64,000 nt of DNA from Acidiphilium acidophilum (GTDB taxonomy: Bacteria > Pseudomonadota > Alphaproteobacteria > Acetobacterales > Acetobacteraceae). Within the stretch, counting starts at the first letter, position 1, and every line of letters begins with the position of its first letter. Below, in pieces: positions 4,776 to 23,906 of the stretch. A program made the position numbers and the translations under genes. The notes beneath the pieces are model-generated. The model did no database searches, was not told the DNA's origin, and worked only from the letters and a program-made list of their open reading frames with translations. The stretch is taken from NCBI RefSeq assembly GCF_033842475.1, contig NZ_JAWXYB010000018.1, positions 496,001-560,000 of the forward strand, given 5' to 3'.

Positions 4776-5744
<969 letters not shown>

Positions 5745-7418: not shown

Positions 7419-7430
7419 CGGGGCGTGCCC

Positions 7431-7769
7431 TCAGCTCCGAACCGTCGAGATCTCGCCATCGCGGCCGCCGCCGCTTGCATCCGGCTTCTTCGGCAGGATG
7501 CCCTCGACCTCGTTATGGACGCGGGCGATGATGTGGGCGGCAACCAGCCCGTCACCGACGCGCTCGCACGCATCCGCCCCGGCGCGGACGGCGGCGTTGA
7601 CCGCGCCGGTCTCGCCGCGCACCAGTACGGTGACGTAGCCGCCGCCGACGAACTGGCGGCCGATCAGCCGTACTTCCGCTGCCTTGGTCATTGCGTCCGC
7701 CGCTTCGATCGCGGGGACGAGGCCGCGGGTTTCGATCATGCCCAGGGCAATCCCGGTATAGTCAGCCAT
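7431..7769 (-). CDS. csoS1B: CsoS1 shell hexamer protein, long-tail copy (CsoS1B-like)
   Basis: A 112-residue single-domain BMC-H protein, one of three tandem paralogues that tile the carboxysome facets. The core from [11 protein letters not shown] to [10 protein letters not shown] is practically identical to the two upstream copies. It differs by a C-terminal tail of about 15 residues (DASGGGRDGEISTVRS), as in CsoS1B-type proteins, which are slightly longer than CsoS1A and CsoS1C. The pore-lining Phe-Val-Gly-Gly segment ([13 protein letters not shown]) is intact. It is the last of the three copies and precedes the ferritin-like gene. Confidence 0.93.
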   Translation of the reverse strand: MADYTGIALGMIETRGLVPAIEAADAMTKAAEVRLIGRQFVGGGYVTVLVRGETGAVNAAVRAGADACERVGDGLVAAHIIARVHNEVEGILPKKPDASGGGRDGEISTVRS

Positions 7770-7805
7770 TTCTGTGATCCTCTGCGTTTCCTGGAAAATT
7801 GCCGC

Positions 7806-8102
7806 TCAGGCGGTGGCGACCTTGGGCAGGATGCCTTCGACCTCGTTATGGACGCGGGCGATGATGTGGGCTGCGACCAGCCCGTCGCCGACGCGCTCGC
7901 ACGCATCCGCCCCGGCGCGCACGGCGGCGTTGACTGCGCCGGTCTCGCCGCGCACCAATACGGTGACGTAGCCGCCGCCGACGAACTGGCGACCGATCAG
8001 TCGCACTTCCGCCGCCTTGGTCATTGCGTCCGCCGCTTCGATTGCGGGGACGAGGCCGCGGGTTTCGATCATGCCGAGCGCGATTCCGATATATTCAGCC
8101 AT
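7806..8102 (-). CDS. csoS1A: CsoS1 shell hexamer protein, middle copy
   Basis: A 98-residue BMC-H protein. It is identical to the flanking csoS1 copies over nearly all of residues 6-93, including [18 protein letters not shown] around the pore and the edge residues of the hexamer. It starts MAEYIG, where the others have MAEYNG and MADYTG, and ends in LPKVATA. Hexamers of this family pass bicarbonate and phosphorylated sugars through a small positively charged pore. Assignment to CsoS1A rather than CsoS1C is by position only, because the two cannot be separated by sequence. Confidence 0.92.
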   Translation of the reverse strand: MAEYIGIALGMIETRGLVPAIEAADAMTKAAEVRLIGRQFVGGGYVTVLVRGETGAVNAAVRAGADACERVGDGLVAAHIIARVHNEVEGILPKVATA

Positions 8103-8143
8103 TGTTCAGTCTCCTCTGGATTTCGTTGAAATATAGCCGCGGC

Positions 8144-8440
8144 TCAGGCCGTCGGCGCTTTGGGCAGGATGCCCTCGACCTCGTTATGGACGCGGGCGAT
8201 GATGTGGGCGGCAACCAGCCCGTCGCCGACGCGCTCGCACGCATCCGCCCCGGCGCGCACGGCGGCGTTGACCGCGCCGGTCTCGCCGCGCACCAGCACG
8301 GTGACGTAGCCGCCGCCGACGAATTCGCGGCCGATCAGCCGCACTTCCGCTGCTTTGGTCATTGCGTCCGCCGCCTCGATCGCCGGCACCAGACCGCGGG
8401 TTTCGATCATGCCGAGGGCAATCCCGTTATATTCAGCCAT
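8144..8440 (-). CDS. csoS1C: CsoS1 shell hexamer protein, first copy
   Basis: A 98-residue BMC-H protein, nearly identical to the next copy; a visible difference is FVGGGYV preceded by RE rather than RQ. The ATG at 8440 is chosen because GAGGAG lies 7 bases upstream; an in-frame TTG 15 bases earlier overlaps that site and is rejected. The gene is preceded by a 114-base gap with a stem-loop, the largest gap among the shell genes. That fits separate mRNA processing to give high hexamer dosage. The CsoS1C name is positional. Confidence 0.92.
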
Positions 8441-8513
8441 GTTTCCACTCCTCAAAAGATATTGCCGAAAATTCCCCGTAAACTCCTGTGGCGCGCGGGA
8501 TTCGCCCCGTTCT

Positions 8514-8530
8514 GGCGTCGAGCTGACGCC
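8514..8530 (-). promoter_or_regulatory. Stem-loop in the csoS4B-csoS1 gap
   Basis: GGCGTC at 8514-8519 and GACGCC at 8525-8530 form a perfect 6-bp stem with a 5-base loop in the 114-base gap between the vertex genes and the three facet genes. No T-run follows, so it looks more like an RNA processing or stability element than a terminator. The proposed role is inference from position: hexamer proteins are needed in large excess over pentamers. Confidence 0.4.
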
Positions 8531-8554
8531 TTACGCATCGGTTGCCCTTAGATT

Positions 8555-8800
8555 TCATGGCGACCAATCATCGATGATGCCGCAGATCGTCAGATCGGTC
8601 GTCACCGCGATGTCCGGCATCGCATAGCGTGCCGCACTGCCGCTGGTGGTGAAGACCCATTTGCCGAACGGCACACCGACCGGGTCCGTCGCGACGGCGA
8701 CGACCCCCTGCATATTCTCCAGCACCCTGAGCGCGGACATGCTCAACCCCGGAACCCGGCGGGTGCATACGAGATCATCGATGACGCGCATGATTTCCAT
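8555..8800 (-). CDS. csoS4B: CsoS4B, carboxysome vertex pentamer protein
   Basis: An 81-residue bacterial microcompartment vertex (BMC-P, EutN/CcmL) protein that caps the twelve vertices of the icosahedral shell. It begins MEIMRVIDDLVCTRR and contains the family's VAVATDPVGVPFGKWVF and TDLTICGIIDDW segments. The ATG at 8800 has GGAGG a few bases upstream; a longer in-frame opening further upstream lies inside csoS4A and is ignored. It follows csoS4A by one base. Pentamers are low-copy, and the gap that follows may limit its expression relative to csoS1. Confidence 0.92.
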   Translation of the reverse strand: MEIMRVIDDLVCTRRVPGLSMSALRVLENMQGVVAVATDPVGVPFGKWVFTTSGSAARYAMPDIAVTTDLTICGIIDDWSP

Positions 8801-8801
8801 G

Positions 8802-9056
8802 TCAGTCCTCCACTTTCCAGTGATCGATGATTCCGACGATCGTGAGATCGGAGGGATAATCCTTGGCCCCGGCGGCCTCGCGCGCGGCGGAGGAGCCGAC
8901 GCACACGACCCAGTCGCCCGGAATGCAGCCCACCGCATCGACCGCCACGCTGCGCGTGCCGCCGATTTTTTCCTGCACCACCAGCAGGGGCCGGTGGCCG
9001 AATGCCTCCAGACGGTTGGTGGATACCAGGGTTTTCTCGACCCGCATGATCCTCAT
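8802..9056 (-). CDS. csoS4A: CsoS4A, carboxysome vertex pentamer protein
   Basis: An 84-residue BMC-P protein beginning MRIMRVEKTLVSTNRL, with GCIPGDWVVCVGSSAAREA and DLTIVGIIDHW, as in CcmL/CsoS4 vertex proteins. Together with CsoS4B it closes the shell vertices; loss of these proteins in studied species makes shells leaky to CO2. Its ATG overlaps the csoSCA stop by 4 bases and its stop is one base before csoS4B, so the three are translationally coupled. Confidence 0.93.
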   Translation of the reverse strand: MRIMRVEKTLVSTNRLEAFGHRPLLVVQEKIGGTRSVAVDAVGCIPGDWVVCVGSSAAREAAGAKDYPSDLTIVGIIDHWKVED

Positions 9057-10573
9057 GTCCGGTGTCCTGCGCTGGGTCCGTGCCCGGCATCGGGCGGCGG
9101 ATCTTCGATGAGGCAGCAGAGTTCGGTGCCGTTCCGGTCGCTCACCGCCATCTGGCAGTGCAACTGGCCCTGCGTTGCGAGGGCGGTGTAGCGCTGCTCG
9201 ATCGCGGCCTTGACCCGGCGGCAGCGCAGTATGGCGCGATCCCGGCCGCCGGGGACGTTCGAGTCGTGAGTGAAGTGCACCAGCACCGGGATCGCCAGGC
9301 CGTGGGCGAGGTTCAGGCCGGTGAAGATCCTGATCCCGACGTCGAGGTCGGCGGTGCCTTCCTCGACGGTGGAGAGATGGGCGAAATAATACATGTTGCG
9401 GACATGCACTTTGGTCGGCGCTTCACCGGCGCAGATGAAATGCTCGTCGTGGCCGAGCTCCGCGTAGCGCCCGGCGTGATGGTGGATGACGTATTCGATC
9501 TGCGAAAGATTGGCTTCGAGCAGCCGCTCCACCAGCGCCTGCATTCCGGCGGACATGCCGCCCTCGGCCTGGGCCATCACTTCGCGGTGCAGGGCGGCGC
9601 GTGCGGTTTGCGGGTCGGCTCCGTTGGTATCGCGATAGACCGCGCTGGCATCGATGAACCGGGTCGCATCGATCCGCCCCGCCCCATCCGGGGTGTGGAT
9701 GCGGATGGCGTCGAGATCGGTGTCGAGACCGATCAGCAGCGTGTCGGGCGCGGCACCGCGCCCGTAGGTGGCATCGATCGCCGTCCGCAACGCGGCGAGC
9801 CGCTCCAGCGCGGCTTCGCAGGCCAATGCGTCGTTGCTGCCGTGAGCCGCGCAGCCCTGATGCTTCGGCGAGCCGGTACTGAAGTGATAGACCGCGATCT
9901 TGAGGTAATTGCCGCCTTCCGAGCCTTCGGGCAGGCCGCCGCTGAGCCGCAGGATTTCGCGCTTCGCCCAGTCGGTCATGTCGCTTTCGATATCGAACAG
10001 CGATCCGGCATAGGCCTTGACCATGATTTCCGGGCCCGGCGCCATGCGGAACACGAAGGGTAGCAGACCTTGCAGCCGGCCATCGGCGCAGGGCGTGATA
10101 TCGACCGTGTGGAACCCGCAATCGCGGAGAAATTGATCGTCGATCGCCTCATAGGGCAACCACAGGGCCTTATCGACGGCCGCGTGATCGACGGAGGACT
10201 TGAAACTGCGCAACACGCAATAGGCATGCAACCAGCGGATGTCGAGTCCGGCGATCCAGGTCCGGGTCAGCTGTGACTCAGGCAGGGCATAACCAAGGTT
10301 CTGTTCCGCCAAGGCCTGTGCCCGCGGCACGAAATCGGGCGCGTACTGAAGTGCCGATATCGCCTTGAGCGTATCAACGATCGCACCGAACCGGGCGCTC
10401 ACCCGGCTTTCGTAATCGTACAGCGCCGCGTTCAACGCCTGATCGACCAGGGCATGCTCGCAGCGCTGCCCGCTGCCCAGGACACAGGCGGGGTTGGGCA
10501 TTGCCGGCGCGATCCGCAGGGCGGGTCGCTCGACGATGCGCTGCTGGGCAGCACGGCGTTGACGCGTGTTCAT
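9053..10573 (-). CDS. csoSCA: CsoSCA, carboxysomal carbonic anhydrase
   Basis: Converts bicarbonate to CO2 inside the shell next to Rubisco. The 506-residue length matches the family (formerly CsoS3, a divergent beta-class enzyme). The zinc ligands are visible: Cys162 with the Asp164/Arg166 pair in TPCADGRLQG, His230 in AVYHFSTGS, and Cys241 eleven residues later, the same spacing as in the characterised enzyme. The second, degenerate catalytic half follows. The Arg/Gln-rich N-terminus (NTRQRRAAQQ) could be the part that tethers the enzyme to its partners. It lies 10 bases after csoS2. Confidence 0.95.
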   Translation of the reverse strand: MNTRQRRAAQQRIVERPALRIAPAMPNPACVLGSGQRCEHALVDQALNAALYDYESRVSARFGAIVDTLKAISALQYAPDFVPRAQALAEQNLGYALPESQLTRTWIAGLDIRWLHAYCVLRSFKSSVDHAAVDKALWLPYEAIDDQFLRDCGFHTVDITPCADGRLQGLLPFVFRMAPGPEIMVKAYAGSLFDIESDMTDWAKREILRLSGGLPEGSEGGNYLKIAVYHFSTGSPKHQGCAAHGSNDALACEAALERLAALRTAIDATYGRGAAPDTLLIGLDTDLDAIRIHTPDGAGRIDATRFIDASAVYRDTNGADPQTARAALHREVMAQAEGGMSAGMQALVERLLEANLSQIEYVIHHHAGRYAELGHDEHFICAGEAPTKVHVRNMYYFAHLSTVEEGTADLDVGIRIFTGLNLAHGLAIPVLVHFTHDSNVPGGRDRAILRCRRVKAAIEQRYTALATQGQLHCQMAVSDRNGTELCCLIEDPPPDAGHGPSAGHRT

Positions 10574-10583
10574 CGCGCAGATC

Positions 10584-13364
10584 TCACGCCCGCGCGCCGC
10601 CGGAGACGGTCACCAGCGGCCCGCGCCCGCTATTGCCGGACGAACCCGTTACCAGGTTGGCAGCGGCGGGCGGCTTCTCGGCTTCGGGCTGGCTGCGTGC
10701 ATCCATCACCGTGCCGCGCGGATTGCCGCGCTGCGACGGGTTCCGCATCAGGCTGGATCGGCCCTCGGTTCCGGAAACCCGGCTCTGGGCCTTCCAGGCA
10801 TCGCCGGTGACGCGCTCGTGGATTTGCGCTTCGCCGCTGAGGCGTTGCGCCTTCGCGATTTTGGTCAGGTCGATCCGGGCCTGGTCACCCTGCGCATCGG
10901 CATCGCGCGGGGTGCCGCGCCGGGCACCCGGCGCGAAATCGTGGTGGCGGAACTCCGGCGTGCCGGTGATCAGCCCCCCGGCCTTGTTGCCGGGGCCGGT
11001 GATGCGATCGACTGCACTGTAGGCGGTTCCGGTGACGGAGCCGCTATCGCCGCGGGCACGATCGGAGTCCCAGGCGACCCGGGCAGGCGAGCGGATGCTG
11101 AAATCGGTCGGCGCCGCCGGCTTGTCGGGCTCGGGCGGACGTTGACGGGAGAGAAAGCGATTTGCCGTGTCGGGGCGCGTCGCGCAGGAGGATGCCATGT
11201 TGTCGGCACCGATATAGGGCGCGCCGGTCACGGTCAGGCAGGTGCCGCGCTCGTCGCCGGTCATGGTGCTGCCGCCCGCGCCGGGGCGGTCGCCGCTGAC
11301 CATGGTCGCGGGGATGCTCGCCCGGTCGCGCACCCGGGCCGACTGGGCCTGGAGGCTCTCGGGGGCGCAGAACGTCTGGTACTGGCCGCGCCCGATATAG
11401 GACGAGCCGCTGATCGGCGAGCAGGCGCCGTATTCATCGCCGGTGACCTGCTCGGACCGCCCGAAGGCGCTGCCGGTCACCTGCTTGCCGTTGAGGGTGA
11501 GGTCGACGCCGACCTTGCTCACGGGTTTGATCCGGGGTGCGTTGGGACCACACAGCGCTGCCGACTGGTCGGCGCTGAAATAGTCGGTTCCGGTGACGGG
11601 GCTGCACCGACCTGCCTCGTCACCGGACATTTTTGGGCTTGAGGCGGTCTCCGTCCCGCTCATGCCCGCGCCACCTCTGGTTTCGATCCGCGCCACCTTG
11701 CGCGGACCGCCGGTGTTACAGAGGGCGCCGAAATCCTTGGCGTTGAAATACTGGTTGCCGGTGACGGCGCGGCATGAACCGGCTTCATCGCCTGTTACGT
11801 GGTGGGACCGCCCGACATCGCTGCCGGTCATCGTCTGGCCGCCGGGGGTGGACATCACGCTCATCCGGCGCGCGGGTGCAGGCACCTCGCTGCGACAGAA
11901 ATCCTTGAAATGTTCGGCGGACAGATACTGGCTGCCCGTTACGTTGCGGCATGAGCCCGGTTCGTCCCCGGTGACTTTGGAGTCGCGCCCCACGGTGGTG
12001 CCGGTGAGAGGCAGCGCCGCGTGGGTGTGGGTCATGCCGACCTTGGGCGGCGCGGTATCGGCGGAGAGGCGACCGTAGGACGTGCCGGTGATCGCGCGGT
12101 CCGCGCCCATTTCGCCGCCGGTGACCTGCGAGGGCCGACCGACGAGGGTGCCGCTGATGGTCTTGCCCTTGGGGGTCGCTTCGCTCACGACCTTGACGGG
12201 CCCGGCTGATGGGCGGGTCGGGCAGAATTTGTCGTACATATTGGCGGGCAGGTAGTCGATGCCGGTGACGGCGCGGCAGGCGCCGGCCTCGTTGCCGGTC
12301 ATCGAGCGGGCGTAGCCGATCTCGGTGCCCGTGACGGTCAGATCCCGTGCCGTCTGGCTCGAACGGACCTTCAACGGCCCGGGCTCGACCTTGATGTCGC
12401 AGATTTCGCCGTACTGCTCGAAGCCGATATATTCGGTGCCGGTGATCGTGCGGCACGAACCCGGCTCGTTGCCGGTGACTTTGCGGCTGCGCTCGACCAT
12501 GGTGCCGGTGACGGCGGTGCCCGACAGGGTGTGGGCTTCCTCGACCTTCGGTGGCGTTTCCATGAAGGCGGGACGGACGCGCACATGCGCGCTGGGGCGG
12601 GTGGTGGCGCGGTTGGTGTTGCAGGTGCCCATCAGGGCGCGAACCTTGCGGTGCTGCATCGCGACCTGACGCCCGCTTGCGCCTTTGGTGATGGCCATCT
12701 GCCAGTCCTGCCCGGGCAGGGAGGCGGCGATTCGGGTGGCTTGCTCGACGCGCTTGATCCCGGATTTGCCGTCCTGGGAAAGGGCGACGCGGCGGGCACG
12801 GGCGAGTGCCTTGCCGACCGGCTGGACCTCGCGGCGCGGCGCGTCGTTCGAGGTGTGCGTGATGGAGGGATCGGCGTGGCCGGCTGAATGCCCTGCCGGG
12901 GTCTGGCACGCGCAGGTTTGGGCGTCATTTTTGGAGGATGGGGTCGCGCAGCCGCAATCATGTGCGGCGGCTGCGGCCTGCCCGGGACGCGATGGCACCG
13001 GTTTGGTCCGGCCGTGACGGGCCGGCTCGGCGTTCTGCGGCTTCGCGGCACCGGTCAGGGCGGACTTGCCCATCCGGCTCAACGCCTGCCGCCGCTCCAG
13101 CGCCGCGCGTTTCGGCGCGACGGGCGGAGCGGAAGCCGGCTGGTGTTGCGGTGTGCCTGCGGCATGACTGCCGGGCCGGATGTGGGCGCTGGGCATCGAG
13201 GCTGACCGGGTCGCCGTGGTCGCGGCTCTGGCAGGCGAGACGAACGTTGCGGTCGCCAGCTTGTTGAGTCCCGCCTTGCCATGTTGTGTCATGGCCTGGC
13301 GGCGCATCAAGGCGATTTCACGTCCCGAAAGGGTCGCGCCTGCTGGTTTATGGGCGGCTGTCAT
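10584..13364 (-). CDS. csoS2: CsoS2, disordered scaffold linking Rubisco and shell
   Basis: A 926-residue repeat protein essential for alpha-carboxysome assembly. Three regions are visible. The N-terminal region has four Rubisco-binding helices (for example ALMRRQAMTQHGKAGL and ERRQALSRMGKSAL). The middle region has six repeats of the VTGDEPGSC...VTGxxY...C type. The C-terminal region has two more repeats and a tail containing ITGTPEFRH. Paired cysteines are present in most repeats but missing in the third middle repeat. The ATG at 13364 has AGGTG 6 bases upstream; the earlier GTG at 13373 lies in that site. I did not find an obvious frameshift signal of the kind that yields a short CsoS2A. 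Confidence 0.95.
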   Translation of the reverse strand: MTAAHKPAGATLSGREIALMRRQAMTQHGKAGLNKLATATFVSPARAATTATRSASMPSAHIRPGSHAAGTPQHQPASAPPVAPKRAALERRQALSRMGKSALTGAAKPQNAEPARHGRTKPVPSRPGQAAAAAHDCGCATPSSKNDAQTCACQTPAGHSAGHADPSITHTSNDAPRREVQPVGKALARARRVALSQDGKSGIKRVEQATRIAASLPGQDWQMAITKGASGRQVAMQHRKVRALMGTCNTNRATTRPSAHVRVRPAFMETPPKVEEAHTLSGTAVTGTMVERSRKVTGNEPGSCRTITGTEYIGFEQYGEICDIKVEPGPLKVRSSQTARDLTVTGTEIGYARSMTGNEAGACRAVTGIDYLPANMYDKFCPTRPSAGPVKVVSEATPKGKTISGTLVGRPSQVTGGEMGADRAITGTSYGRLSADTAPPKVGMTHTHAALPLTGTTVGRDSKVTGDEPGSCRNVTGSQYLSAEHFKDFCRSEVPAPARRMSVMSTPGGQTMTGSDVGRSHHVTGDEAGSCRAVTGNQYFNAKDFGALCNTGGPRKVARIETRGGAGMSGTETASSPKMSGDEAGRCSPVTGTDYFSADQSAALCGPNAPRIKPVSKVGVDLTLNGKQVTGSAFGRSEQVTGDEYGACSPISGSSYIGRGQYQTFCAPESLQAQSARVRDRASIPATMVSGDRPGAGGSTMTGDERGTCLTVTGAPYIGADNMASSCATRPDTANRFLSRQRPPEPDKPAAPTDFSIRSPARVAWDSDRARGDSGSVTGTAYSAVDRITGPGNKAGGLITGTPEFRHHDFAPGARRGTPRDADAQGDQARIDLTKIAKAQRLSGEAQIHERVTGDAWKAQSRVSGTEGRSSLMRNPSQRGNPRGTVMDARSQPEAEKPPAAANLVTGSSGNSGRGPLVTVSGGARA

Positions 13365-13430
13365 GGCAATCACCTCGACGTTTCATGTCTTCGTAGCAGC
13401 GTCGTTCATCGTGGACCGGTATCGGCCCGA

Positions 13431-13757
13431 TCAGCGATAGACGACGAACGAAAGTCCCTGGCTCTGGGCATAGTTGTCGTAGGCGACGTAGCGAACCAGG
13501 TGATCCGGATAGGCGCGGTGGCAGGCTTCGATTTCGGCCATGACGGCGTCGACCGATTGCTCGCCGAACAACGGCAGTTTCCACATGTACCAGTAGCTGA
13601 CATGGGCGGGGGTGCCGCGCTCGGTGTGCTCGACGGCGGGATTCCAGCCCTGGGCGATCGTGTAGGCCACCTGGCGGCGCACCTGTTCCGGGGTCATCGG
13701 CGGGAGGTAGGAGAAGGTCTCGTATTTCAGTGAGGAATTGTAGGCTTGAACGGACAT
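13431..13757 (-). CDS. cbbS: Rubisco small subunit, form IA
   Basis: A 108-residue Rubisco small subunit. It has [20 protein letters not shown], the conserved [12 protein letters not shown] and an [20 protein letters not shown] segment. Eight copies cap the L8S8 holoenzyme. Length and the absence of an N-terminal extension fit carboxysomal form IA. It lies 101 bases after cbbL, behind a stem-loop and a short tandem repeat, and 66 bases before csoS2. Confidence 0.97.
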
Positions 13758-13858: not shown

Positions 13859-15280
13859 CTATCGGTTGGTGACGTCGAGCTTGTCCACCGTGTCGAATTC
13901 GAACTTGATTTCTTTCCAGGTTTCCATGGCGATCTTGAGCTCGGGAGAATGCGCGGCGGCGGCGGTGAGAATGTCCTTGCCTTCGCGTTCCAGATCACGC
14001 CCTTCGTTGCGCGCCTGAACGCAGGCTTCGACCGCGACGCGGTTGGCGTGCGCGCCGCCGGCATTGCCCCAGGGGTGGCCGAGGGTGCCGCCGCCGAACT
14101 GCAGGACCGAATCGTCGCCGAAGATGGTGACCAGCGAGGGCATGTGCCACACGTGGATACCGCCCGAGGCGACCGCGAAGGCGCCCGGCATCGATCCCCA
14201 ATCCTGATCGAAGAAGATGCCGCGCGAGCGGTCTTCCGCGACGAAGGATTCACGCAGCAGGTCGATCCAGCCGAGCGTCGAGGCGCGATCGCCTTCGAGC
14301 TTGCCGACCACGGTGCCGGTGTGCAGGTGATCGCCGCCGGAGAGACGCAGGATTTTCGTCAGCACCCGGAAATGGATGCCGTGGTGGGGATTGCGGTCGA
14401 CCACGGCATGCATCGCGCGATGGATGTGCAGAAGAATGCCGTTGTTGCGGCACCAGTTGGCAAGACCGGTATTGGCGGTGAAGCCGCCGGTGATGTAGTC
14501 GTGCATGATGATCGGCGCGCCGATTTCCTTGGCGTATTCGGCACGCTTGTACATTTCCTCGGGCGTCGGCGCGGTCACGTTCAGGTAGTGACCCTTGCGC
14601 TCGCCGGTCTCTGCTTCGGATTTGTGGATTGCTTCCATCACGAAATCGAAACGCTCGCGCCAGCGCATGAAGGGCTGGCTGTTGACGTTTTCGTCGTCCT
14701 TGGTGAAGTCGAGGCCGCCGCGCAGGGCTTCGTAGACCGCGCGGCCATAATTTTTGGCGGACAGGCCGAGCTTCGGCTTGATCGTGCAGCCCAGCATCGG
14801 ACGGCCGTATTTGTTGAGCTTGTCGCGCTCGACCTGAATGCCGCACGGCGGACCGCCGCAGGTTTTCACGTAGGCGATCGGGAATCGCACGTCCTCGAGC
14901 CGCAGGGCGCGCACGGCCTTGAAGCCGAACACGTTGCCCACCAGCGAGGTGAACACGTTGACCACCGAACCTTCTTCGAACAGATCGATCGGGTAGGCGA
15001 TGAAGGCATAGAAACAGGTATCGTCGCCCGGCACGTCTTCGATGCGGTAGGAGCGGCCCTTGTAATAATCGAGGTCGGTCAGCAGGTCGGTCCACACCGT
15101 GGTCCATGTGCCGGTCGAGGATTCCGCCGCGACCGCCGCTGCGGCTTCTTCACGATCGACACCGGCCTGCGGGGTGATTTTGAAGCAGGCCAGGATATCC
15201 GTATCGAGTGGCGTGTAGTCCGGTGTCCAATACGTGTGTCGGTATTCCTTGACCCCCGCACTGTATTTCTTTCCGCTCAT
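13859..15280 (-). CDS. cbbL: Rubisco large subunit, form IA
   Basis: A 473-residue large subunit that carboxylates ribulose-1,5-bisphosphate. The catalytic segments are intact: [10 protein letters not shown], the carbamylated lysine in [16 protein letters not shown] (Lys194), the HIHRAMH histidine, loop 6 TVVGKLEGD, and [12 protein letters not shown]. The N-terminus [17 protein letters not shown] is typical of form IA enzymes packaged in alpha-carboxysomes. It is the first gene of the long minus-strand carboxysome operon and is divergent from the interrupted regulator gene cbbR. Confidence 0.98.
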
Positions 15281-15524
15281 TTCAATCTCCCTATGATAGC
15301 AAAAACATTGTTAAACGCGACGATGGGCCTGCCGGCTTTGACAGGCCACGGCGAACATCTTAGGCGACGTACCTTCAGAAACATGGATGGGTGAACACGC
15401 GACGGACCGTTTTCTCTCAACCTGGGGCGGGGCAGACTTTTGTTTTTTGAGTAACCTGATCGCCTCATACAGGGTAAAGATGATCATGGAAAATATGGAA
15501 TTCTTATGCGAGTAATCACTTTTT
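15281..15524. promoter_or_regulatory. Divergent cbbL/cbbR control region
   Basis: This 244-base gap between divergent cbbL and cbbR should hold the operon promoter and CbbR sites. The half near cbbR (about 15470-15524) is strikingly AT-rich for this genome and contains a TTA-N6-TAA dyad at 15504-15515. The half near cbbL has a perfect 6-bp inverted repeat, GGCCTG at 15326-15331 with CAGGCC at 15342-15347, which would lie in the cbbL leader. CbbR sites are known to be loose T-N11-A dyads, so exact boxes cannot be assigned by eye. Confidence 0.6.
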
Positions 15525-15697
15525 ATGAATACTGAGCCCAAGTCCCGCATCAAGACCCCTCGCCGACGCAATTTCACCCTGCGCCAGCTCAAGCTGTTCG
15601 AAGCCGTCGCGCGCACCGGCAGTTTTACCCGCACTGCCGAAGAACTCCATCTGACCCAGCCCGCCGTCTCCAACCAGATCAAGCAGCTCGAAGACCA

Positions 15698-15706
15698 GAT
15701 CGGGAC
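15698..15706. repeat. Target-site duplication, left copy
   Basis: GATCGGGAC flanks the insertion sequence on its left and is repeated exactly at the right junction. A 9-bp duplication is within the range reported for IS4-family elements. Confidence 0.9.
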
Positions 15707-16989
15707 CTCACTCATCCCCTCATTACGTAGCCGGCATGGAATTGCCGAATATGCCGCTGCTGCGCAGCATTTCCGTGAACCGCCGCATCAGGGGCAGTAG
15801 CCGGTGCTTCGGCATGTTCGGGATCAATTCATAGAGCATGCACCCCTGACGGAACAACGAGTGTGAGCGGGTCTTCGAAGTGTTGGACTTGAGCTGTCGA
15901 TCCATTCCCAGGCTCTCGCCTGCCGTCCCGAGCATGGTCAGCAGCGCCATCGCAAACGCGCTGATGAGCAGCAGCCGATCGCGCCGCTCTGGTTCGGCGA
16001 TGCGGATCTCAGCCATCCCCATCCCAAAACGCAAATCCTTGACGTCCCTGAAGCTGGGTTCGATCGTCCAGCGCCGGGAATATTGCTTGATCAATGTCCC
16101 TGCAGACGCCACGGCGTCACTGCTCGCCAGGCACCACGGCTCCTTCATGTCACGCGCATGTACGCACACCACGGCACCGACCTGATAGGCGTGCGAGGCG
16201 GTGACGCGCGCACCACGCAGTTTGCGCGCCCGGCCCGATTTGCCGACCCAGTCCGCCGCGGTTCGCGTCTCGCCTGCGGCATCGGTGACATGGATGTTGC
16301 CGCGGAAGCGAATGATATAGGCAAAGCCAAGCTCCGTAAGATACGCGAACAGCTTGTGGTCACCGAAGCCGCGGTCGGCCAGGATGGTCACGCGGCAGCC
16401 GGGCGGGACAACCTCCGACAGGCGGCGCAGGCAAGTATCCTCGATGGCGTTGCGCTGATCTTTCAATTCCTCTTTCCACATCGACAGCCACAACAGAGGC
16501 ATCGCCCGGCCATGCTTGCTCACCAGGTTGAGCGCCAACGTTGCCTGATCGTCGCCGTCGAAATCCGTCCAGTCCATGGCAACGACGATGTCGGTCTGCG
16601 AACCCACCAGATGCGGTACCCAACGGGCGAAGCTTTCCCAGACGTCGATACTCTCGTTACTGAGCATGCGATCAACCTGCTTGATCGCGTGCTTGGTCAC
16701 CAGCCCGCGCGCCTGTGCCAACGCCTGACCGATCATCGCGACGGCGAGCGACGCGCCGGTCATCACGCCCAGTGTCGCAGCAGACAGGGAGTCAACGCGT
16801 TTGGCGTGGAGATCGTGGGCATACAACTCGTCAATGAATGCGCGGATGTCCTTCAACCGCCCACCATCACGCTTTTTCGATGCTGCAATTCCCATGATCC
16901 ACCCTCATCCATGCATTCCAACGCTTGGTAGAGAATCGCAGCGAATCGGCGCAATACCTGGACCTATGGAAAATGGGGGGATTCCTGAG
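15707..16989 (-). mobile_element. IS4-family insertion sequence, 1,283 bp, inserted in cbbR
   Basis: The element is bounded by the 9-bp target duplication and by imperfect 18-bp terminal inverted repeats. The left end reads ctcactcatcccctcatt; the right end, reverse-complemented, reads ctcaggaatccccccatt, with 14 of 18 positions matching. It carries one full-length transposase gene on the minus strand, opposite to cbbR and therefore pointing towards cbbL. No degradation is visible, so it is probably an active or recently active copy. Confidence 0.93.
15723..16895 (-). CDS. IS4-family DDE transposase
   Basis: A 390-residue transposase. The first acidic residue lies in MDWTDFDGDD, the second in ILADRGFGD, and the third in the family signature YSRRWTIEPSFRDVK, which fits Y-(2)-R-(3)-E-(6)-K exactly. 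The reading frame is intact from start to stop inside the terminal repeats. Transcription runs toward the cbbL promoter region; read-through could produce RNA antisense to the cbbR N-terminal segment or affect cbbL expression. The specific IS name needs a comparison with the ISfinder collection. Confidence 0.95.
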   Translation of the reverse strand: MGIAASKKRDGGRLKDIRAFIDELYAHDLHAKRVDSLSAATLGVMTGASLAVAMIGQALAQARGLVTKHAIKQVDRMLSNESIDVWESFARWVPHLVGSQTDIVVAMDWTDFDGDDQATLALNLVSKHGRAMPLLWLSMWKEELKDQRNAIEDTCLRRLSEVVPPGCRVTILADRGFGDHKLFAYLTELGFAYIIRFRGNIHVTDAAGETRTAADWVGKSGRARKLRGARVTASHAYQVGAVVCVHARDMKEPWCLASSDAVASAGTLIKQYSRRWTIEPSFRDVKDLRFGMGMAEIRIAEPERRDRLLLISAFAMALLTMLGTAGESLGMDRQLKSNTSKTRSHSLFRQGCMLYELIPNMPKHRLLPLMRRFTEMLRSSGIFGNSMPAT

Positions 16990-16998
16990 GATCGGGAC
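16990..16998. repeat. Target-site duplication, right copy
   Basis: Second copy of GATCGGGAC at the right end of the insertion sequence, exactly matching the left copy. It places the boundary between the element and the resumed cbbR coding sequence (ACT CCT TTG, Thr-Pro-Leu). Confidence 0.9.
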
Positions 16999-17800
16999 TC
17001 CTTTGTTCGAGCATATCGGCCGCAAGATTTCGCCCACCGAGGTCGGGCGGGAACTGGTGGCGTTCAGCCGCGACATTTCCCAGCGCATCGATGAATTCGA
17101 GAATCTTCTCGATGATATCAAGGGTTTGCACCACGGGGTCCTCAATGTCGCGGTGGTCAGCACGGCGGAATATTTCTCGCCTTATCTGCTGGCGCGGTTC
17201 TGCTCCCACCACCCCGGCATCACCGTCAACCTCGATGTGACCAACCGCGACGCGGTGCTGAAACAACTGGCCGACAACGCGCCGGATATGGCGATCATGG
17301 GCGTCCCTCCCGATGGTGCGAACCTCGTCGCCCAGTCATTCATGCCCAATCCGCTGGTCGTGGTCGCCGCGCCGGATCATGCGCTGGCCACGATGAAGGA
17401 CGTGCCGATCGAGCGGGTGGTCAGGGAACGGTTCATCATCCGCGAACCCGGTTCCGGCACGCGGGACGCATTTGAGCGATTCCTGATGAAAAGCGGATGG
17501 CGCCTGCAGAATTCGATGGAAATGAGCAGCAACGAGGCGATCAAGCACGCGGTGATGGCCGGGCTCGGCCTCGGCGTCGTATCACTTCACACGCTGGAAA
17601 TGGAATTGAAGCTGGGCCGACTCGCCATTGTCGACCTCGTCGACTTCCCGCTCGAACGCCATTGGTATCTGGTTCATCGTCAGGGCAAACGCTTCAGCGT
17701 CGCCGCCCAGTCGCTCAAGACGTTCATCCTCACCGAAGCCGCGCAGGCGGTGCTGCCCGCCTTGCCGGGCCGCAAAACCAGGGCGAAGGCAAAACGCTGA

Positions 17801-17990
17801 ATGTCGCCGGTTCATTCATGTCACTGAATGGTCACGCAAAAAATTATTAATTTTATTTTTTTTCGTTCTCGCATATAGGACGGGCAGCTTCCGATCCGGC
17901 ATCCGCCCACACAATCAAAATCCGCGCGATATGAGGTCAACAACGAACCGCTTGCACTGATATCAAAAAAGTCAAGGGCAAATAATAAAT
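17801..17990 (+). promoter_or_regulatory. AT-rich upstream region of the dab operon with two inverted repeats
   Basis: The 190-base gap after cbbR contains CATTCA-N6-TGAATG at 17813-17830, then an AT-only inverted repeat AAAATTA-T-TAATTTT at 17840-17854 followed by a T-rich run. The AT stretch is exceptional in this genome. It could be a weak terminator for cbbR, an UP element, or a LysR-type binding site controlling dabB. No strong ribosome-binding site precedes dabB; AAGGGC lies about 12 bases upstream of its ATG. Confidence 0.5.
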
Positions 17991-19664
17991 ATGGAACGTC
18001 TGGTCTTTCTACTGATTATCCTCCCCCTGATTTCAGCGGGCATTGTCGGGTTCGGTCAATTCGGCCGTCGCTCGGCGGCAATAAGCATTGGCTTCAACGT
18101 CGCGGTTTTCGCGATCGCGCTGTTCCTGCTCGCCGCCAGCCTCGATGGCGTGCCGAACGGCGTGCTGCACCTCAACCCGGTATGGGGCAGCGTTCAGTTC
18201 GATCCGCTGGCCGTGCTGATGGCGGCGGTGATTTCGGGAATCGGTCTGATCGTCCATGTCTATTCCCGCCGCTATATGGCTGAGGAATCGGGTTATGCGC
18301 GTTTTTTTGCCTTGCTCGATCTCATGGTGGTGTGCCTGCTGCTGATGGTCTGCGCCGCCGATCTGCTTACCTTGGTCATTGCCTGGAACCTCATCGGCCT
18401 CGTGCTGTTCTGGCTGCTCGATCATCGACTTGCCAGCCCATCGGCCTATCGCTACGGGTTCTGGACCTTCATCACCTACCGTTTCGGCGATCTGCCTCTG
18501 GTCCTCGCCGCGCTCATCCTGCACCGGCTCTACGGTTCGTGGTCGATGGCGGTGGTCTTCGCGAAGGTCGCCGCCGACCCGACCATGACCCTTGCCGGCG
18601 GGCTGCCGGTGGCCGAAACCGTCGCGGCGCTGGTGGCTCTGTCCGCGTTTGCCCGCTCCGCGCAGTTCCTGCTCCATAACTGGCTGCCCTACACGATGGA
18701 CGGGCCCACCCCGGTTTCGGCGCTGATGCATGCCGGTATCGTCAATGCCGGGGCCTTCATCATCAACCGTTTCGCGCCCGTCTTCGTCGCCGCCGGTGTG
18801 GTTCTGCATTGGGTTTTCGTGGTCGGTCTGGTCACCGCGATTGCCGGTTCGCTGCTGATGCTCGCGCAGAACGACATCAAGAAATCACTGGGCTATTCCA
18901 CGATGGGCCAGATGGGCTTCATGATCATGGAATGCGGTGTCGGCGCGTTTTCCCTCGCGATCTTTCATCTGATCGCGCACGGACTGTTCAAGGCGACGCT
19001 GTTCCTCAGTTCCGGCAGTGCCATCAACCAGGCCCGCGCGGATGACGGCGTGCCGAAGAGCGAGTTGTATACCTTCGTCGTCGAACGCCGCCCCACCGCC
19101 TATCGCCAGCCCTGGCAATTGATGGCGCTGATCACGCTGGCGGTGCCCGCCGGCATCCTGCTGATCGCGCACTGGCTGGTCGGCGCCGGAATCCTCGCCG
19201 AGCAGGGGGCGATCGTGCTGCTGTTCTTCGGCTGGATCACCGGCGCGCAGTTGCTGTTCTCGATCCATCGGATGGATTCGGAAAACCCGTGGCGGATGGT
19301 CAGCCTCGCGGTCATTTCGCTCGTGGTGATCGTGCTGGGATACACCTTCATCAGCCACGCGTTCGACCTGTTCCTTTACCCGGATGCCGCGTTCCGCCGC
19401 GCGATTTTCAGCGCCGCCGCGATCAGCCCGGTCGCGTTCGACGGTGTCGTCGTCCTTGTGACACTCGTCATCGTCGCGGGGTGGATTCTTGCCTACCGTG
19501 CCACCCATCAGGACAAGGAAAGCGATGATCGCACCACGCGATCCTGGCTGATCTACTACGCTCTGATCTCGCGGGAGTTCTATATCGCCGATCTGTACGC
19601 CGCCGCCTCACGCGGCGTGCTCAGCGCCTCCCGTCGGGTCAATCTGTGGCTGCGGTGGGTGTGA
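17991..19664 (+). CDS. dabB: DabB, proton-channel-like membrane subunit of the DAB inorganic-carbon pump
   Basis: A 557-residue polytopic membrane protein of the NuoL/MrpA (NADH-quinone/antiporter) family with a dozen or more hydrophobic segments. Characteristic stretches are HNWLPYTMDGPTPVSALMHA, with conserved polar residues in the channel half, and DIKKSLGYSTMGQMGFM. In the known DAB complexes it couples the proton or cation gradient to CO2 hydration by DabA. It has no other complex I genes near it; its partner dabA lies two genes downstream. It starts the operon right after cbbR. Confidence 0.92.
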   Translation: MERLVFLLIILPLISAGIVGFGQFGRRSAAISIGFNVAVFAIALFLLAASLDGVPNGVLHLNPVWGSVQFDPLAVLMAAVISGIGLIVHVYSRRYMAEESGYARFFALLDLMVVCLLLMVCAADLLTLVIAWNLIGLVLFWLLDHRLASPSAYRYGFWTFITYRFGDLPLVLAALILHRLYGSWSMAVVFAKVAADPTMTLAGGLPVAETVAALVALSAFARSAQFLLHNWLPYTMDGPTPVSALMHAGIVNAGAFIINRFAPVFVAAGVVLHWVFVVGLVTAIAGSLLMLAQNDIKKSLGYSTMGQMGFMIMECGVGAFSLAIFHLIAHGLFKATLFLSSGSAINQARADDGVPKSELYTFVVERRPTAYRQPWQLMALITLAVPAGILLIAHWLVGAGILAEQGAIVLLFFGWITGAQLLFSIHRMDSENPWRMVSLAVISLVVIVLGYTFISHAFDLFLYPDAAFRRAIFSAAAISPVAFDGVVVLVTLVIVAGWILAYRATHQDKESDDRTTRSWLIYYALISREFYIADLYAAASRGVLSASRRVNLWLRWV

Positions 19665-19665
19665 G

Positions 19666-20421
19666 ATGTCACTGATCGCCGCCCTGCCTGCCGCGGTTTT
19701 CCTGCCGCTGTTTCCTCTCAGTGCGCTCTTCGTTCTGCTGTTCTGCCGGGTCCGCGACCTGAGCCTCCGCGCTTTGGCCATCCTGCTCTGGCCGCAGATC
19801 GGCCTGATGCTCGCGAGTTTTGCCGCGCCATCGCCGGCACTGCGGATCTGGGCGCTGCTCACCGCCCTGTTATACGCCTGGCGTGCATTGAGCGTGCAGG
19901 AACTCGACCGCTGGATCGCCTTCATCGCGGTCTCGGCTTGGTCGCTGCTGTGGGTCGGCTGGGGGGCGCGGTATGATCTGGCGGGCATGCGTCTGCTGGG
20001 TCTGGAATTCTCGCTCAGCCTTCTCGCGCCGATGCTGGTCAATGCGCTGCTCGGGCGCCGGGTCGGCGTCGCTTATGCCGGATTGAACCACGGCCTGCCC
20101 GACGTCGCGCCACGACTCGCGGGCTTCCTGGTCGTCGGCGTGTTGGCCGCCGTCGCCACGCCGCCATTTCCGTCCTTCTTTGCCGTTCTCGGCATTCTTC
20201 ACACCGCTGCCCCCGGCATGGCGGTGGGGATTTGCGCGGTCTGGCTGCTCTGGTCATGGACGGCGCTTCGCCTGCTCGAAGGGTTCATTACCAGAAGGTG
20301 GACATTGCCCCGCCGGATCGCCGATCTCGAACGCGCCACGAGCATGGCCCTTGCGCTTTTTTTCCTGGTCATCTGCGTGCTGGCGCTGGGGCTCAGCAAT
20401 GCGAGCCTTGCCGCCCTATGA
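19666..20421 (+). CDS. Unnamed membrane protein between dabB and dabA
   Basis: A 251-residue, very hydrophobic protein with about seven predicted membrane segments and no soluble domain. It starts one base after the dabB stop and ends 36 bases before dabA, so it is almost certainly part of the same complex or operon. The segment LAAVATPPFPSFFAVLGIL is reminiscent of the later helices of NuoM/NuoN-type antiporter subunits, so it may be a truncated antiporter-like subunit; this is a weak resemblance judged by eye. It is not needed in the minimal two-component DAB system described in the literature. Confidence 0.7.
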   Translation: MSLIAALPAAVFLPLFPLSALFVLLFCRVRDLSLRALAILLWPQIGLMLASFAAPSPALRIWALLTALLYAWRALSVQELDRWIAFIAVSAWSLLWVGWGARYDLAGMRLLGLEFSLSLLAPMLVNALLGRRVGVAYAGLNHGLPDVAPRLAGFLVVGVLAAVATPPFPSFFAVLGILHTAAPGMAVGICAVWLLWSWTALRLLEGFITRRWTLPRRIADLERATSMALALFFLVICVLALGLSNASLAAL

Positions 20422-20457
20422 TCAGGAGTCGATGACCGAAATGGGACAGGATGAACC

Positions 20458-23400
20458 ATGACCCTACCTCTGGCCGATACTCTCAAACTGCGCGCCATGG
20501 TCTATGTCGCCGGCGAGCCGATCGCGTTTTTCTGGCCGATGCGCAATTTCATCCATCACAACCCGCTTCATGGTCTCGAAGGCCTCGCTTTCGAGGACGC
20601 CGTCGCGCGGGGTGAAACTCTGTTCCACGCGCGCGGTTTTCTCAAGCGGCGCGAATATCAGCGATACGTGGCCGAAGGGGCGATCGATGATGAGGAACTC
20701 CGCCGCCAGATCCGCACGTTCGTAGCGAGCCACGATCTGCCGCCCGGGATCGATTGGGAGCGGGCCTTCCACCGCCTGCTTACCGGCGTTGCCGACCCCA
20801 TCGCTCTCCCGGTCGAGATCGCGACGCCCGCCTGCATTCGGTCCGCGCTGCGGGGCGACGCCATTGCCGATACCCTGGTCGATAAATGGACCCTGATCGG
20901 CCGGATGCAGGCGCAACTGGGTGGCGACACGCCGCTATGCGAGGCGATCGATGCGCTCTACGGCACCCAGATCAGCGCAACCCTCGACGATCTGCTGATC
21001 AAGAGCTGCCTCGATTTTTTTGACGAAGGCCAGTCGACCATGGCGATGCCCGGGCGCGAGCAGGGGTTCTTCCGGGCCTGGAGCCGTCTCTCGCGGCACA
21101 ATCTCAAGATGTTCCTGCGCGGCCTGCACATCGACAAGGTTCTCCAGGGCATCGAGACCCCGGAAGGCATGATTGCGCGCGCCATGCGCGCTCAGGGCGT
21201 GCCGGAGGAACACTGGGTCGGCAATTTCACTCGCGAACTGGCGCGCCTGCACGGCTGGGCCGGCTTCATCCGCTGGCGTCAGAACGCAAGGAACTATTAC
21301 TGGGCGCAGCAATACCCTGCCGATCTGGTCGATTTTCTGGCGGTGCGCGAAGCTCTGGTGCTTGCGCTCCTGAAGGAGGAGCATCAGCCCGGGATGCCGG
21401 CCACCGCGCCTGAACTCGCGACGATGCTCGATCAGCGCCCCTACGAGGTGTTTCTTCGCCTGCAATACCATTCCGGCAACGTGCTGCCCGAACTCGCGCA
21501 TCGCATTCACGACACCATTCTGCGCGGCGACACGCCGGACATCCGGCGGCTGTTCGACCGGTACACCCGGCTTCTGCGGGCGGACGAAGCGCAGCGATCC
21601 GCCGGCGCGTTGAAAACCTGGGGCGATGCCGCCGGGATCACGCCGGCCCTTCAAAATCTTGATGAACCCGCCTTCTCCAAGCTGCTCACCGCGCTGCGCG
21701 CGTTCGAAGCCGGGGAGGGGATGATCTGGCTGCGCGCGATGGAATCCCACGCGATCGGGCAATTCGGCCGGGGCATCGACACCGGCAGCCCCAAACCGCG
21801 GGAGAAGCGCCCGTTCGCGCAGGCGCTGTTCTGTATCGATACCCGCTCCGAGCGCATCCGCCGTCATTTCGAGACCATCGGCGATTACCAGACCTTCGGC
21901 ATCGCGGGGTTTTTCGGCGTGCCGATCAGCCTGCTCGAACTCGGCAAAGGTAACGAGGCGCATCTCTGCCCGGCCATTGTCACGCCGCGCAACCTCGTGC
22001 TGGAAATGCACGTGAGCGAGCCGATGGATGAGACGGTCGCGGGTGTTCTCGCCGAGGCGCTGCACGAGTTGAAGAACTCCATTCTGACGCCGTTTGCGAC
22101 CGTCGAAGCGATCGGGCTGCTGTTCGGGTTCGACCTGATCGGCAAGACGATGGCGCCGGTTGCGTATCAGCGCTGGCGCGGCAAGTTGTTCGCCGACCCG
22201 GCGCCCACGCGGCTGCTGCTGGACAAGCTCAGCCGTGAACAGGCCGATTCGATCCTGCGTGCGGTGCAGCGGGAAATCATCGTCAAGGCGATCCAGCACG
22301 AGCTCGGCCTGCCGCCCGAACGCATCCCCGATGAAATCGTGCGCGATCTGCGTGAAGCCGCGTTGCGCCGTCTCGACCCTGACCAGGCCCTCGCTGTTAG
22401 CCTCGGGCTCGATCCGCCCGGCCTCGACGCCTTCATCGAGCGTCTGCGCCGCGCCTACCGGATCAACCGCCAGTTCAGCCGGCTTCAGCTCGAACGCCTC
22501 GGCCGGATCGGGTTCACGCTCGGCGAACAGGCCCATTTCGTCGGTCAGGCGCTGCGCTCGATCGGGCTGACCGAAGGGTTTTCGCGCTTCGTCCTGCTCG
22601 TCGGCCATGCCAGCGTGTCGGACAACAACCCCTATGAGTCGGCGTTGGACTGCGGGGCCTGCGGCGGTGCCAGCGGCAGCCACAATGCCCGCGTCCTCGC
22701 GCAGATGGCCAACAAGGTCGATGTCCGCCGTCGCCTGCGCGAACAGGGCATCGACATTCCCGAAGACGTCGTTTTCATCGGTGCCCTGCACAACACGGTC
22801 ACCGATGATATCACCCTGACCGATCGCGAACTCATTCCGCCAGCCCACCTGCTTTACCTCGATCGTCTCAACAAGGGGTTGACCGCCGCGAGCCGTCTCT
22901 GCGCCCAGGAACGCATCGCCACCCTCCTGCCCGAGACGGCGAAGCGGCCCGGCACCGGCGCGGCGCGGCGCATGGCCCTGCGCAACGCGGTCGACTGGTC
23001 GCAGGTACGCCCCGAATGGGGTCTCTCGCGCAACACTTACTTCATCATCGGCCGGCGCCACCTGACCCAGAAGCTGAAATTCGACGGTCGCGCGTTCCTT
23101 CACTCCTATGACTGGCGGATCGATCCGAAACGGCGGCTGCTGGAATCGATCATCACGGGTCCGTTGGTGGTCGGGCAATGGATCAACATGGAGCATTATT
23201 TTTCCGCGGTCGATAACGAAGCCTATGGCAGCGGCAGCAAAGTCTATCATAACGTGGCCGGGCGCTTCGGGGTTATGACCGGTAATCTGGGCGATCTGCG
23301 CACCGGCCTGCCGGCGCAGACCGTCCTGCGTGATGGCCGCCCCTATCACGACCCGATCCGGCTGATTGCGGTGATCGACGCACCCGTCGCGCATGCCCGC

Positions 23401-23583
23401 GCCGCCGTGGAGGGCGTTGTGGCGGTGAGGCGGCTGGTCCAGAATGGGTGGATCCGCCTGCTCATCGTCGATACCGAGGGTGATCTCCTCAGCCTTTACC
23501 TCGAAGGCGGCGAATGGCGCGACCAGAGGCTCGACACCAGAACAATTCAATCTCTCGCAACCGGGGAACCGATCACGGCATGA
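20458..23583 (+). CDS. dabA: DabA, carbonic anhydrase-like subunit of the DAB pump (DUF2309)
   Basis: A 1,041-residue cytosolic protein of the DUF2309/UPF0753 family. The predicted zinc site is complete: Cys459 and Asp461 in LFCIDTRSER, His717 in VGHASVSDNN and Cys732 in LDCGACGG. The last two are 15 residues apart, as in characterised DabA. It is thought to hydrate CO2 unidirectionally to bicarbonate, driven by DabB, and so raise cytosolic bicarbonate for the carboxysome. It is much longer than the roughly 830-residue DabA2 type and probably belongs to the long DabA1-like branch. It overlaps the PII-like gene by 4 bases. Confidence 0.95.
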   Translation: MTLPLADTLKLRAMVYVAGEPIAFFWPMRNFIHHNPLHGLEGLAFEDAVARGETLFHARGFLKRREYQRYVAEGAIDDEELRRQIRTFVASHDLPPGIDWERAFHRLLTGVADPIALPVEIATPACIRSALRGDAIADTLVDKWTLIGRMQAQLGGDTPLCEAIDALYGTQISATLDDLLIKSCLDFFDEGQSTMAMPGREQGFFRAWSRLSRHNLKMFLRGLHIDKVLQGIETPEGMIARAMRAQGVPEEHWVGNFTRELARLHGWAGFIRWRQNARNYYWAQQYPADLVDFLAVREALVLALLKEEHQPGMPATAPELATMLDQRPYEVFLRLQYHSGNVLPELAHRIHDTILRGDTPDIRRLFDRYTRLLRADEAQRSAGALKTWGDAAGITPALQNLDEPAFSKLLTALRAFEAGEGMIWLRAMESHAIGQFGRGIDTGSPKPREKRPFAQALFCIDTRSERIRRHFETIGDYQTFGIAGFFGVPISLLELGKGNEAHLCPAIVTPRNLVLEMHVSEPMDETVAGVLAEALHELKNSILTPFATVEAIGLLFGFDLIGKTMAPVAYQRWRGKLFADPAPTRLLLDKLSREQADSILRAVQREIIVKAIQHELGLPPERIPDEIVRDLREAALRRLDPDQALAVSLGLDPPGLDAFIERLRRAYRINRQFSRLQLERLGRIGFTLGEQAHFVGQALRSIGLTEGFSRFVLLVGHASVSDNNPYESALDCGACGGASGSHNARVLAQMANKVDVRRRLREQGIDIPEDVVFIGALHNTVTDDITLTDRELIPPAHLLYLDRLNKGLTAASRLCAQERIATLLPETAKRPGTGAARRMALRNAVDWSQVRPEWGLSRNTYFIIGRRHLTQKLKFDGRAFLHSYDWRIDPKRRLLESIITGPLVVGQWINMEHYFSAVDNEAYGSGSKVYHNVAGRFGVMTGNLGDLRTGLPAQTVLRDGRPYHDPIRLIAVIDAPVAHARAAVEGVVAVRRLVQNGWIRLLIVDTEGDLLSLYLEGGEWRDQRLDTRTIQSLATGEPITA

Positions 23584-23906
23584 ACAATTTCCAGCTCAGC
23601 ACCCTGAAGAAACTCGAAATCATCCTCGAGGGCGAACACCTCGCCTTCGCGACCGACCTGCTCGACCGGGCGAACGTCAAAGGCTACACCATCGTCAATC
23701 ACCTCTCGGGCAAAGGCAGTCACGGCTTCCACGAGGGTCACGTGATGTTCAATGAAGACTCCGTCCTCGTCATGCTGATCACCGCGGTTCCCGAGGAACT
23801 GGTTCAGCCCCTCATCGAAGGGTTCAATCCGTTCTTCAGCCAGCACTCCGGCGTCATTTTCATCTCGGACATCCAGGTGAGCCGCCTGATCAAGTTCAAG
23901 GATTAG
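23580..23906 (+). CDS. PII-like signalling protein of the carbon-uptake operon
   Basis: A 108-residue protein with the ferredoxin-like PII fold judged by pattern (KKLEIILEGEHLAFATDLLDRANVKGYTIV, and SGKGSHGF in the T-loop region). It lacks the uridylylated Tyr of GlnB and is therefore of the CPII/SbtB-like kind, known next to bicarbonate transporters and carboxysome genes, where members bind adenine nucleotides and in one case bicarbonate. Its ATG overlaps the dabA stop by 4 bases. A role in gating or sensing for the DAB pump is inference from this coupling. Confidence 0.85.
   Translation: MNNFQLSTLKKLEIILEGEHLAFATDLLDRANVKGYTIVNHLSGKGSHGFHEGHVMFNEDSVLVMLITAVPEELVQPLIEGFNPFFSQHSGVIFISDIQVSRLIKFKD

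Follow-up and report, generated by a model that had tools for sequence, protein, structure and literature searches.

What becomes of the control of a carboxysome operon when the regulator gene beside it has been split by a mobile element? The question is raised by the window analysed here (a stretch of 64,000 nucleotides from Acidiphilium acidophilum), in which the LysR-type gene cbbR, lying between RuBisCO and carboxysome genes on one side and DAB genes on the other, is interrupted by an insertion sequence (IS). A preliminary description had concluded that the carboxysome operon is left without its normal activator. We consider it highly probable that a recently multiplied IS4-family copy broke the cbbR of this module and that, most likely, the module lost its own CbbR control. 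That an IS should inactivate a regulator is nothing new in kind, and we take the present case to be an ordinary insertional knock-out, to which the setting lends moderate interest. Our literature search found no published IS-broken cbbR (PMC2890560, in the part available, describes two CbbRs and not such an insertion), no paper on an Acidiphilium carboxysome, as judged by title, and no paper joining cbbR, carboxysome and dabA.

A carboxysome and DAB module at the place of a red-type operon

The genes that surround cbbR in the window are as follows.

200-895, plus strand: rpe-like gene, last of an fbp-prk-fba-rpe string whose fbp, prk and fba lie mostly upstream of the window
2397-13757, minus strand: carboxysome genes (cbbO/cbbQ-like genes, shell proteins, csoSCA, csoS2, cbbS), named by order and by eye except for csoS2
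13859-15280, minus strand: cbbL, form I RuBisCO large subunit, divergent from cbbR (NF003252, 802 bits, over cut-off; PF00016)
17991-19664, plus strand: dabB, first of the DAB genes (17991-23906)
19666-20421, plus strand: membrane protein between dabB and dabA (DAB genes)
20458-23583, plus strand: dabA (DAB genes)
23514-23906, plus strand: small PII-like protein, named by eye (DAB genes)

The csoS2 gene matches PF12288 over cut-off, with the NCBIfam CsoS2 models below their cut-offs. In the genome as a whole, cbbL is the only PF00016 match and there is one PRK-family match; soxB and pufM matches, both over cut-off, show that the genome encodes electron sources for CO2 fixation. Among 60 genomes, CsoS2 was found in three (this one, G034 and, as a weak short match, G031) and DabA in 13.

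Six of 11 same-genus relatives have a full-length form I match, and their cbbL, which we take to be form IC, red type, is 88-100% identical to that of relative G004 and 56-57% identical to that of the window. In relative G008 the gene order is fbp-prk-fba-cbbL-cbbS-cbbX-rpe (cbbS and cbbX were identified by eye), and codA-like, fabI-like and ABC genes come next; here (window positions 1-28300 and locus L133) it is fbp-prk-fba-rpe, carboxysome genes, cbbR and DAB genes, followed by the same codA-fabI-ABC string. Compared with the red-type cbb operons of the genus (G004, G008 and G011), the fbp-prk-fba genes are thus the same, as is, for G008, the rpe-codA-fabI-ABC flank, whereas here there is no cbbLSX and the module sits between rpe and codA. 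Synteny shows that the carboxysome, cbbR and DAB module has taken the place of the red-type cbbLSX of the genus, next to unchanged Calvin-cycle genes; the regulator struck by the IS would be the module's own. With the fbp-prk-fba-rpe genes still alongside, this exchange of a red-type RuBisCO for a carboxysome module is a clear instance of pathway swapping within a genus.

The interrupted cbbR

The split gene and the element inside it are arranged as follows.

15525-15706, plus strand: cbbR 5' part, residues 1-60, LysR helix-turn-helix (HTH; PF00126, 73 bits)
15698-15706, no strand: left 9-bp target duplication GATCGGGAC (direct-repeat comparison)
15707-16989, minus strand: IS4-family insertion sequence, 1,283 bp, ends matching at 14/18 positions (sequence and NF033591)
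15723-16895, minus strand: transposase, 390 aa, reading towards cbbL (PF01609, 50.6 bits; NF033591, 226 bits)
16990-16998, no strand: right 9-bp target duplication GATCGGGAC (direct-repeat comparison)
16990-17800, plus strand: cbbR 3' part, residues 58-327, linker and effector domain (PF03466, 175 bits)

The preliminary description had given the length of the insertion, its 14/18 matching ends and its exact 9-bp duplication, and these coordinates are right to the base. Its assignment of the element to the IS4 family also holds: the transposase scores 226 bits against the NCBIfam IS4-family model NF033591 (cut-off 152), the other eight NCBIfam transposase models listed all fall below their own cut-offs, and YSRRWTIEPSFRDVK in the translation, read by eye, fits Y-x2-R-x3-E-x6-K, the IS4-family signature. 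Elements of this family have terminal inverted repeats and target duplications of 9 bp or longer. The window element shares with the IS4-family insertion sequences (NF033591) the transposase model, a DDE domain, a length of about 1.3 kb, short imperfect terminal repeats and 9-bp target duplications, and no feature in which it differs from them was found.

The 5' part of cbbR runs on into the IS as a 91-aa frame with a stop at 15800, and the 3' frame, in its listed form, begins with a TTG (16925) inside the IS and encodes 291 aa with no HTH. The LysR HTH (PF00126) and the LysR substrate domain (PF03466) are both present, in two separated frames, so that neither piece would be likely to work alone, and we infer that the cbbR product is dead. 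If the element and one repeat are removed from the whole span (15525-17800), an open frame of 327 aa is restored, as had been claimed, and it is 89% identical to an uninterrupted orthologue, a 337-aa frame lying between the same cbbL and dabB in Rhodospirillales bacterium 20-60-12 (locus L023). The dN/dS of the rejoined gene against this orthologue is 0.07 (0.02 to 0.17 for five other module genes in the same comparison), a sign of purifying selection from which it follows that cbbR was kept by selection until recently; the earlier suggestion that it had been functional until recently agrees with this. The divergent arrangement of cbbR and cbbL recurs in loci L023-L026, and cbbR falls in a clade of carboxysome-linked CbbRs (eight rows, support 100/99) with csoS2 at 8/8 loci. 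Against the NCBI CbbR equivalog model NF045990 (Rhodobacter type, cut-off 450 bits), the 3' frame alone scores 230 bits, below the cut-off.

The sequence shows that a recently multiplied IS4-family copy jumped into cbbR and gave rise to the 9-bp target duplication, and that it inactivated the gene by parting its DNA-binding part (residues 1-60) from its linker and effector part (residues 58-327). The gene so broken would be the regulator of the carboxysome-RuBisCO-DAB module, at the place of the genus's red-type cbbLSX.

A recent burst of the element

At least 27 near-full copies of the element occur in the genome, that of the window included (40 of 151 candidates scored). Both element ends were located at 25 of the 26 other loci fetched, the exception being a 98% copy (L167). 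All 25 are identical to the window copy, base for base over 1,283 bp, and 24 of them are flanked by an exact 9-bp direct repeat. These copies exclude a chance insertion-like pattern in cbbR, and the complete identity of 26 copies points to a very recent burst of the element. At least eight of 60 genomes, this one included, match the element at E <= 1e-100 (best six or fewer candidates scored per genome), and the best matches outside this genome, among the candidates scored, were one 99% full copy (G003) and fragments. The plasmid sequences searched contained no match to the IS, and to the C1 stretch they gave partial hits only, most of them transposase genes.

Two further features of the copies may be mentioned. 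The sole copy among the 25 without a target duplication (L165) may mean a rearrangement between copies. Three pairs of copies, at about 297-300 kb (L142/L143), 3342-3346 kb (L150/L153) and 3554-3559 kb (L149/L155) of contig C18 of this genome (G000), have members no more than about 3 kb apart and in opposite orientation, each copy with its own 9-bp repeat.

With 27 near-full copies, short reads could probably not have spanned the element, and an assembly artefact or a minority variant at this repeated element would be one way to account for the split gene. We hold this to be very improbable: the 9-bp repeats are exact, and a mis-join is made unlikely by the two flanks, which together give back a single conserved frame, and by the position of the site within a contig of 3.64 Mb.

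Insertion into cbbR has parallels elsewhere in the genome. A mechanical scan found a frame of at least 70 codons spanning the insertion at 21 of the 25 other sites, some of which may not be genes. Of four spanning proteins checked against Pfam, three had matches, namely FliP, D-glutamate cyclase (in whose frame the insertion is early, ahead of the matched domain) and pyridine nucleotide-disulphide oxidoreductase; the fourth was without a Pfam match. As cbbR is one casualty among several, no special benefit of the insertion need be assumed, and the cbbR insertion is one event of a very recent IS burst that also split other frames. At locus L156 the same IS splits the FliP-type flagellar gene, and the strain may be non-motile.

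Splitting of the fliP frame and at least two others by the same IS is also what might be seen if autotrophy had been lost in culture, heterotrophic growth having made the regulator dispensable. Growth of IS numbers in cultured Acidiphilium is reported for an IS1634-type element, which rose from one to three copies in Acidiphilium sp. PM (PMC4549789, in the portion available), and loss of cbbR was neutral on fructose and succinate in Cupriavidus necator (PMC8591527, likewise in part). Against this, the other module genes compared are open and conserved with L023, and we regard a loss of autotrophy as possible, on the unlikely side.

Other CbbR-type regulators in the genome

The preliminary description had proposed a search for a second cbbR as a check on its own conclusion, and the outcome goes part of the way against it. 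A search of the genome with the rejoined CbbR protein gave 15 matches, two of which are the halves of the broken gene, and two others are whole CbbR-type LysR genes: L010 (C18:3601148-3602044), 41% identical to the broken CbbR, and L011 (C18:3224714-3225592), 37% identical. Thus the cognate cbbR of the sole RuBisCO found is indeed broken, and two intact CbbR-type genes remain. NF045990 is the best model for both (338.7 bits for L011, 232.7 for L010), with neither at the 450-bit cut-off. Across the 60 genomes, ten (this one included) had a CbbR match at E <= 1e-45. Two trees were used to place these genes: a quick tree of 93 rows, into which only ten of the loci L069-L102 were taken and from which rows below 90 bits were dropped (below 30 for six outgroups from this genome), and a careful tree with 40 of the 93 rows.

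The 19.5 kb read around L011 contain no cbb gene. The neighbours of L011, by eye an FAD oxidoreductase and genes of glycosyltransferase type, are those of its counterparts in G007 and G008, and at least the oxidoreductase neighbour is common to the G004 counterpart. L011 groups among CbbRs of the genus with 99 SH-aLRT in the quick tree and in a six-row clade (100/100) in the careful tree. The wider eight-row clade (100/99) includes a G011 gene that is divergent from fbp-prk-fba-cbbL-cbbS-cbbX; the exact branch of this gene is weaker (90/67). Given the place of the G011 gene in this wider clade, L011 is best read, by tree and neighbourhood, as the probable resident CbbR of the genus.

L010, on the other hand, directly precedes a second dabB-dabA pair, whose DabA is confirmed by PF10070. 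It forms a long branch in a 12-row clade (100/99), its exact sister being weakly placed (85/59). This clade contains Thiobacillus-type LysR genes that lie by a second cbbL (L031, L034, L044) or are divergent from dabB-dabA (L032, L033), together with marine LysR genes (L072, L083) without marker genes in the fetched flanks. As regards L032 and L033, the carboxysome-linked cbbR and DAB locus of a bin named Rhizobium sp. groups tightly with the one in a Thiobacillus bin; the name is probably wrong.

The second pair and its own CbbR-like LysR gene lie at L131:9131-14377, and its DabA is distant from the sister-species DabA proteins compared. In the five same-genus DabA genomes fetched (of six, with G010 left out), DabA is just 32-41% identical to the DAB2 copy here.

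These two genes raise the tentative possibility that the resident CbbR (L011), the DAB2-linked LysR protein (L010) or both control the module in trans, so that the knock-out has little effect. Both are whole and score best to the NCBI CbbR model, the relatives of L010 in Thiobacillus-type genomes sit beside a second cbbL or dabB-dabA, and C. necator offers a precedent in which one cbbR copy is dead and the other serves (PMC8591527, in the part available). They are, however, only distantly identical to the broken CbbR and short of the model's cut-off, and the clade of L010 also holds the marine genes, with its sister weak. Nor did the comparison of upstream regions described below bring out a shared operator.

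Candidate regulatory sites

Two intergenic regions flank cbbR in the window.

15281-15524, no strand: cbbL-cbbR intergenic region, conserved with L023; candidate site TACTCGCATAAG, minus strand, at 15503-15514
17801-17990, no strand: cbbR-dabB gap; second copy of the candidate site, TTCTCGCATATA, at 17866-17877

The window has two copies of the 12-base pattern TWCTCGCATAWR, one ahead of cbbR/cbbL and one ahead of dabB. Two copies were reached in 0/100 shuffles, a figure that overstates the case because the pattern was built from those same two sites. The 8-base core of the pattern, CTCGCATA, has a third window copy inside dabA (20936) and is conserved in L023 at the two corresponding regulatory places. 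As a general CbbR site the core is ruled out by its presence in 0/11 other cbbL-cbbR regions. Were TWCTCGCATAWR, a motif found after the fact, the site of the broken CbbR, carboxysome and DAB genes would both be without control.

Upstream of fbp, the block AGAAAATTTATCTTTACTTA is the same in this genome and G008. Part of it is conserved in G004 and G011, in the interval separating the LysR gene from fbp; this conservation and position make the block a candidate site of the resident CbbR. A shared operator between the fbp element and the cbbL promoter was looked for and none was found: the best 10-mer matched at 9/10 positions and 39/150 dinucleotide shuffles were equally good, as were 130/150 at 12 bases and 106/150 at 14 bases. 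The CbbR motif TNA-N7-TNA, taken from PMC2942843 (seen in part), was also scanned. It occurred once in the cbbL-cbbR region, with 1.28 expected, a count that carries no information there, and two, two, two and three times before fbp in this genome, G008, G004 and G011, with 0.50-0.91 expected; three other stretches scanned had none.

The fbp element finds no match ahead of cbbL beyond what chance would give, which argues against the resident CbbR having simply taken over, although lost induction does not follow from it. A regulatory hand-over, in which the resident CbbR belonging to the lost RuBisCO type (or else the DAB2-linked regulator) has taken charge of the module and has brought the older and newer parts of the pathway under common control, appears doubtful.

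Consequences for the module

The most likely consequence of the knock-out would be a module no longer governed by a CbbR of its own. For the older fbp-prk-fba-rpe string, continued control by the resident CbbR is to be expected; the gene of this regulator (C18:3224714) and the conserved fbp element are still in place. Three sources could account for what cbbL transcription is left: a basal promoter, either of the two other CbbR-type regulators, or read-through from the transposase.

The last of these sources had been raised by the preliminary description, which correctly saw that the transposase points at cbbL: it is a minus-strand frame whose stop lies 16 bp from the cbbL-side end of the element. 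Transcripts of the transposase might pass this short left end and enter cbbL, so that cbbLS and the cso genes would be expressed constitutively. On the transposase strand between the transposase (15723) and cbbL, a consensus scan detected no terminator-like site, and with the stop so near the element end such read-through is possible. Transposase genes, however, are usually poorly expressed, and a consensus scan, a weak test, found no sigma-70-like promoter in the element. We therefore consider IS-driven expression improbable.

Returning to the loss of the module's own control as the preferred reading, the cluster may have lost this control without being silenced, and loss of CbbR could also derepress cbbL. 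If the culture still fixes CO2, it lends itself directly to the question of whether a carboxysome operon can do without a CbbR of its own, and of whether a host regulator of another RuBisCO type can run such an operon. If it does not, the genome serves as a warning, with the parts list present and the switch broken.

Comparison with known systems

Rhodospirillum centenum, like the genome described here, has two CbbRs, which are there associated with RuBisCO of forms IAq and IC. That organism has both RuBisCO operons, whereas here only one RuBisCO remains (PMC2890560, in the part available).

The cbb1 operon of Acidithiobacillus ferrooxidans has the same arrangement as the locus in the window, a LysR gene divergent from carboxysomal cbbL, followed by cso genes, and its carboxysome-linked CbbR binds the cbb1-3 upstream regions (PMC2942843, in part). 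In contrast, cbbR is here split by an IS, and an unlinked resident CbbR and a DAB-linked one are present in the genome. In A. ferrooxidans CbbR rises with CO2 as cbb1 transcripts fall, and it can act both ways (PMC6458275, excerpted), so that CbbR need not be a plain activator; it is therefore uncertain that CbbR acts purely as the activator of which the preliminary description had spoken.

In C. necator, according to the sections available of PMC8591527, loss of cbbR cuts cbb expression 100-fold and RegA/B gives basal cbb expression. Its paired cbb operons resemble the present case in that one of two cbbR copies is naturally inactive; there the lesion is a 26-bp deletion and the pair are two copies of one cbb operon, whereas here it is an IS and the remaining genes are distant paralogues (PMC8591527). 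To judge from A. ferrooxidans and C. necator together, reduced expression, derepression and rescue in trans would each be a plausible outcome for the carboxysome module.
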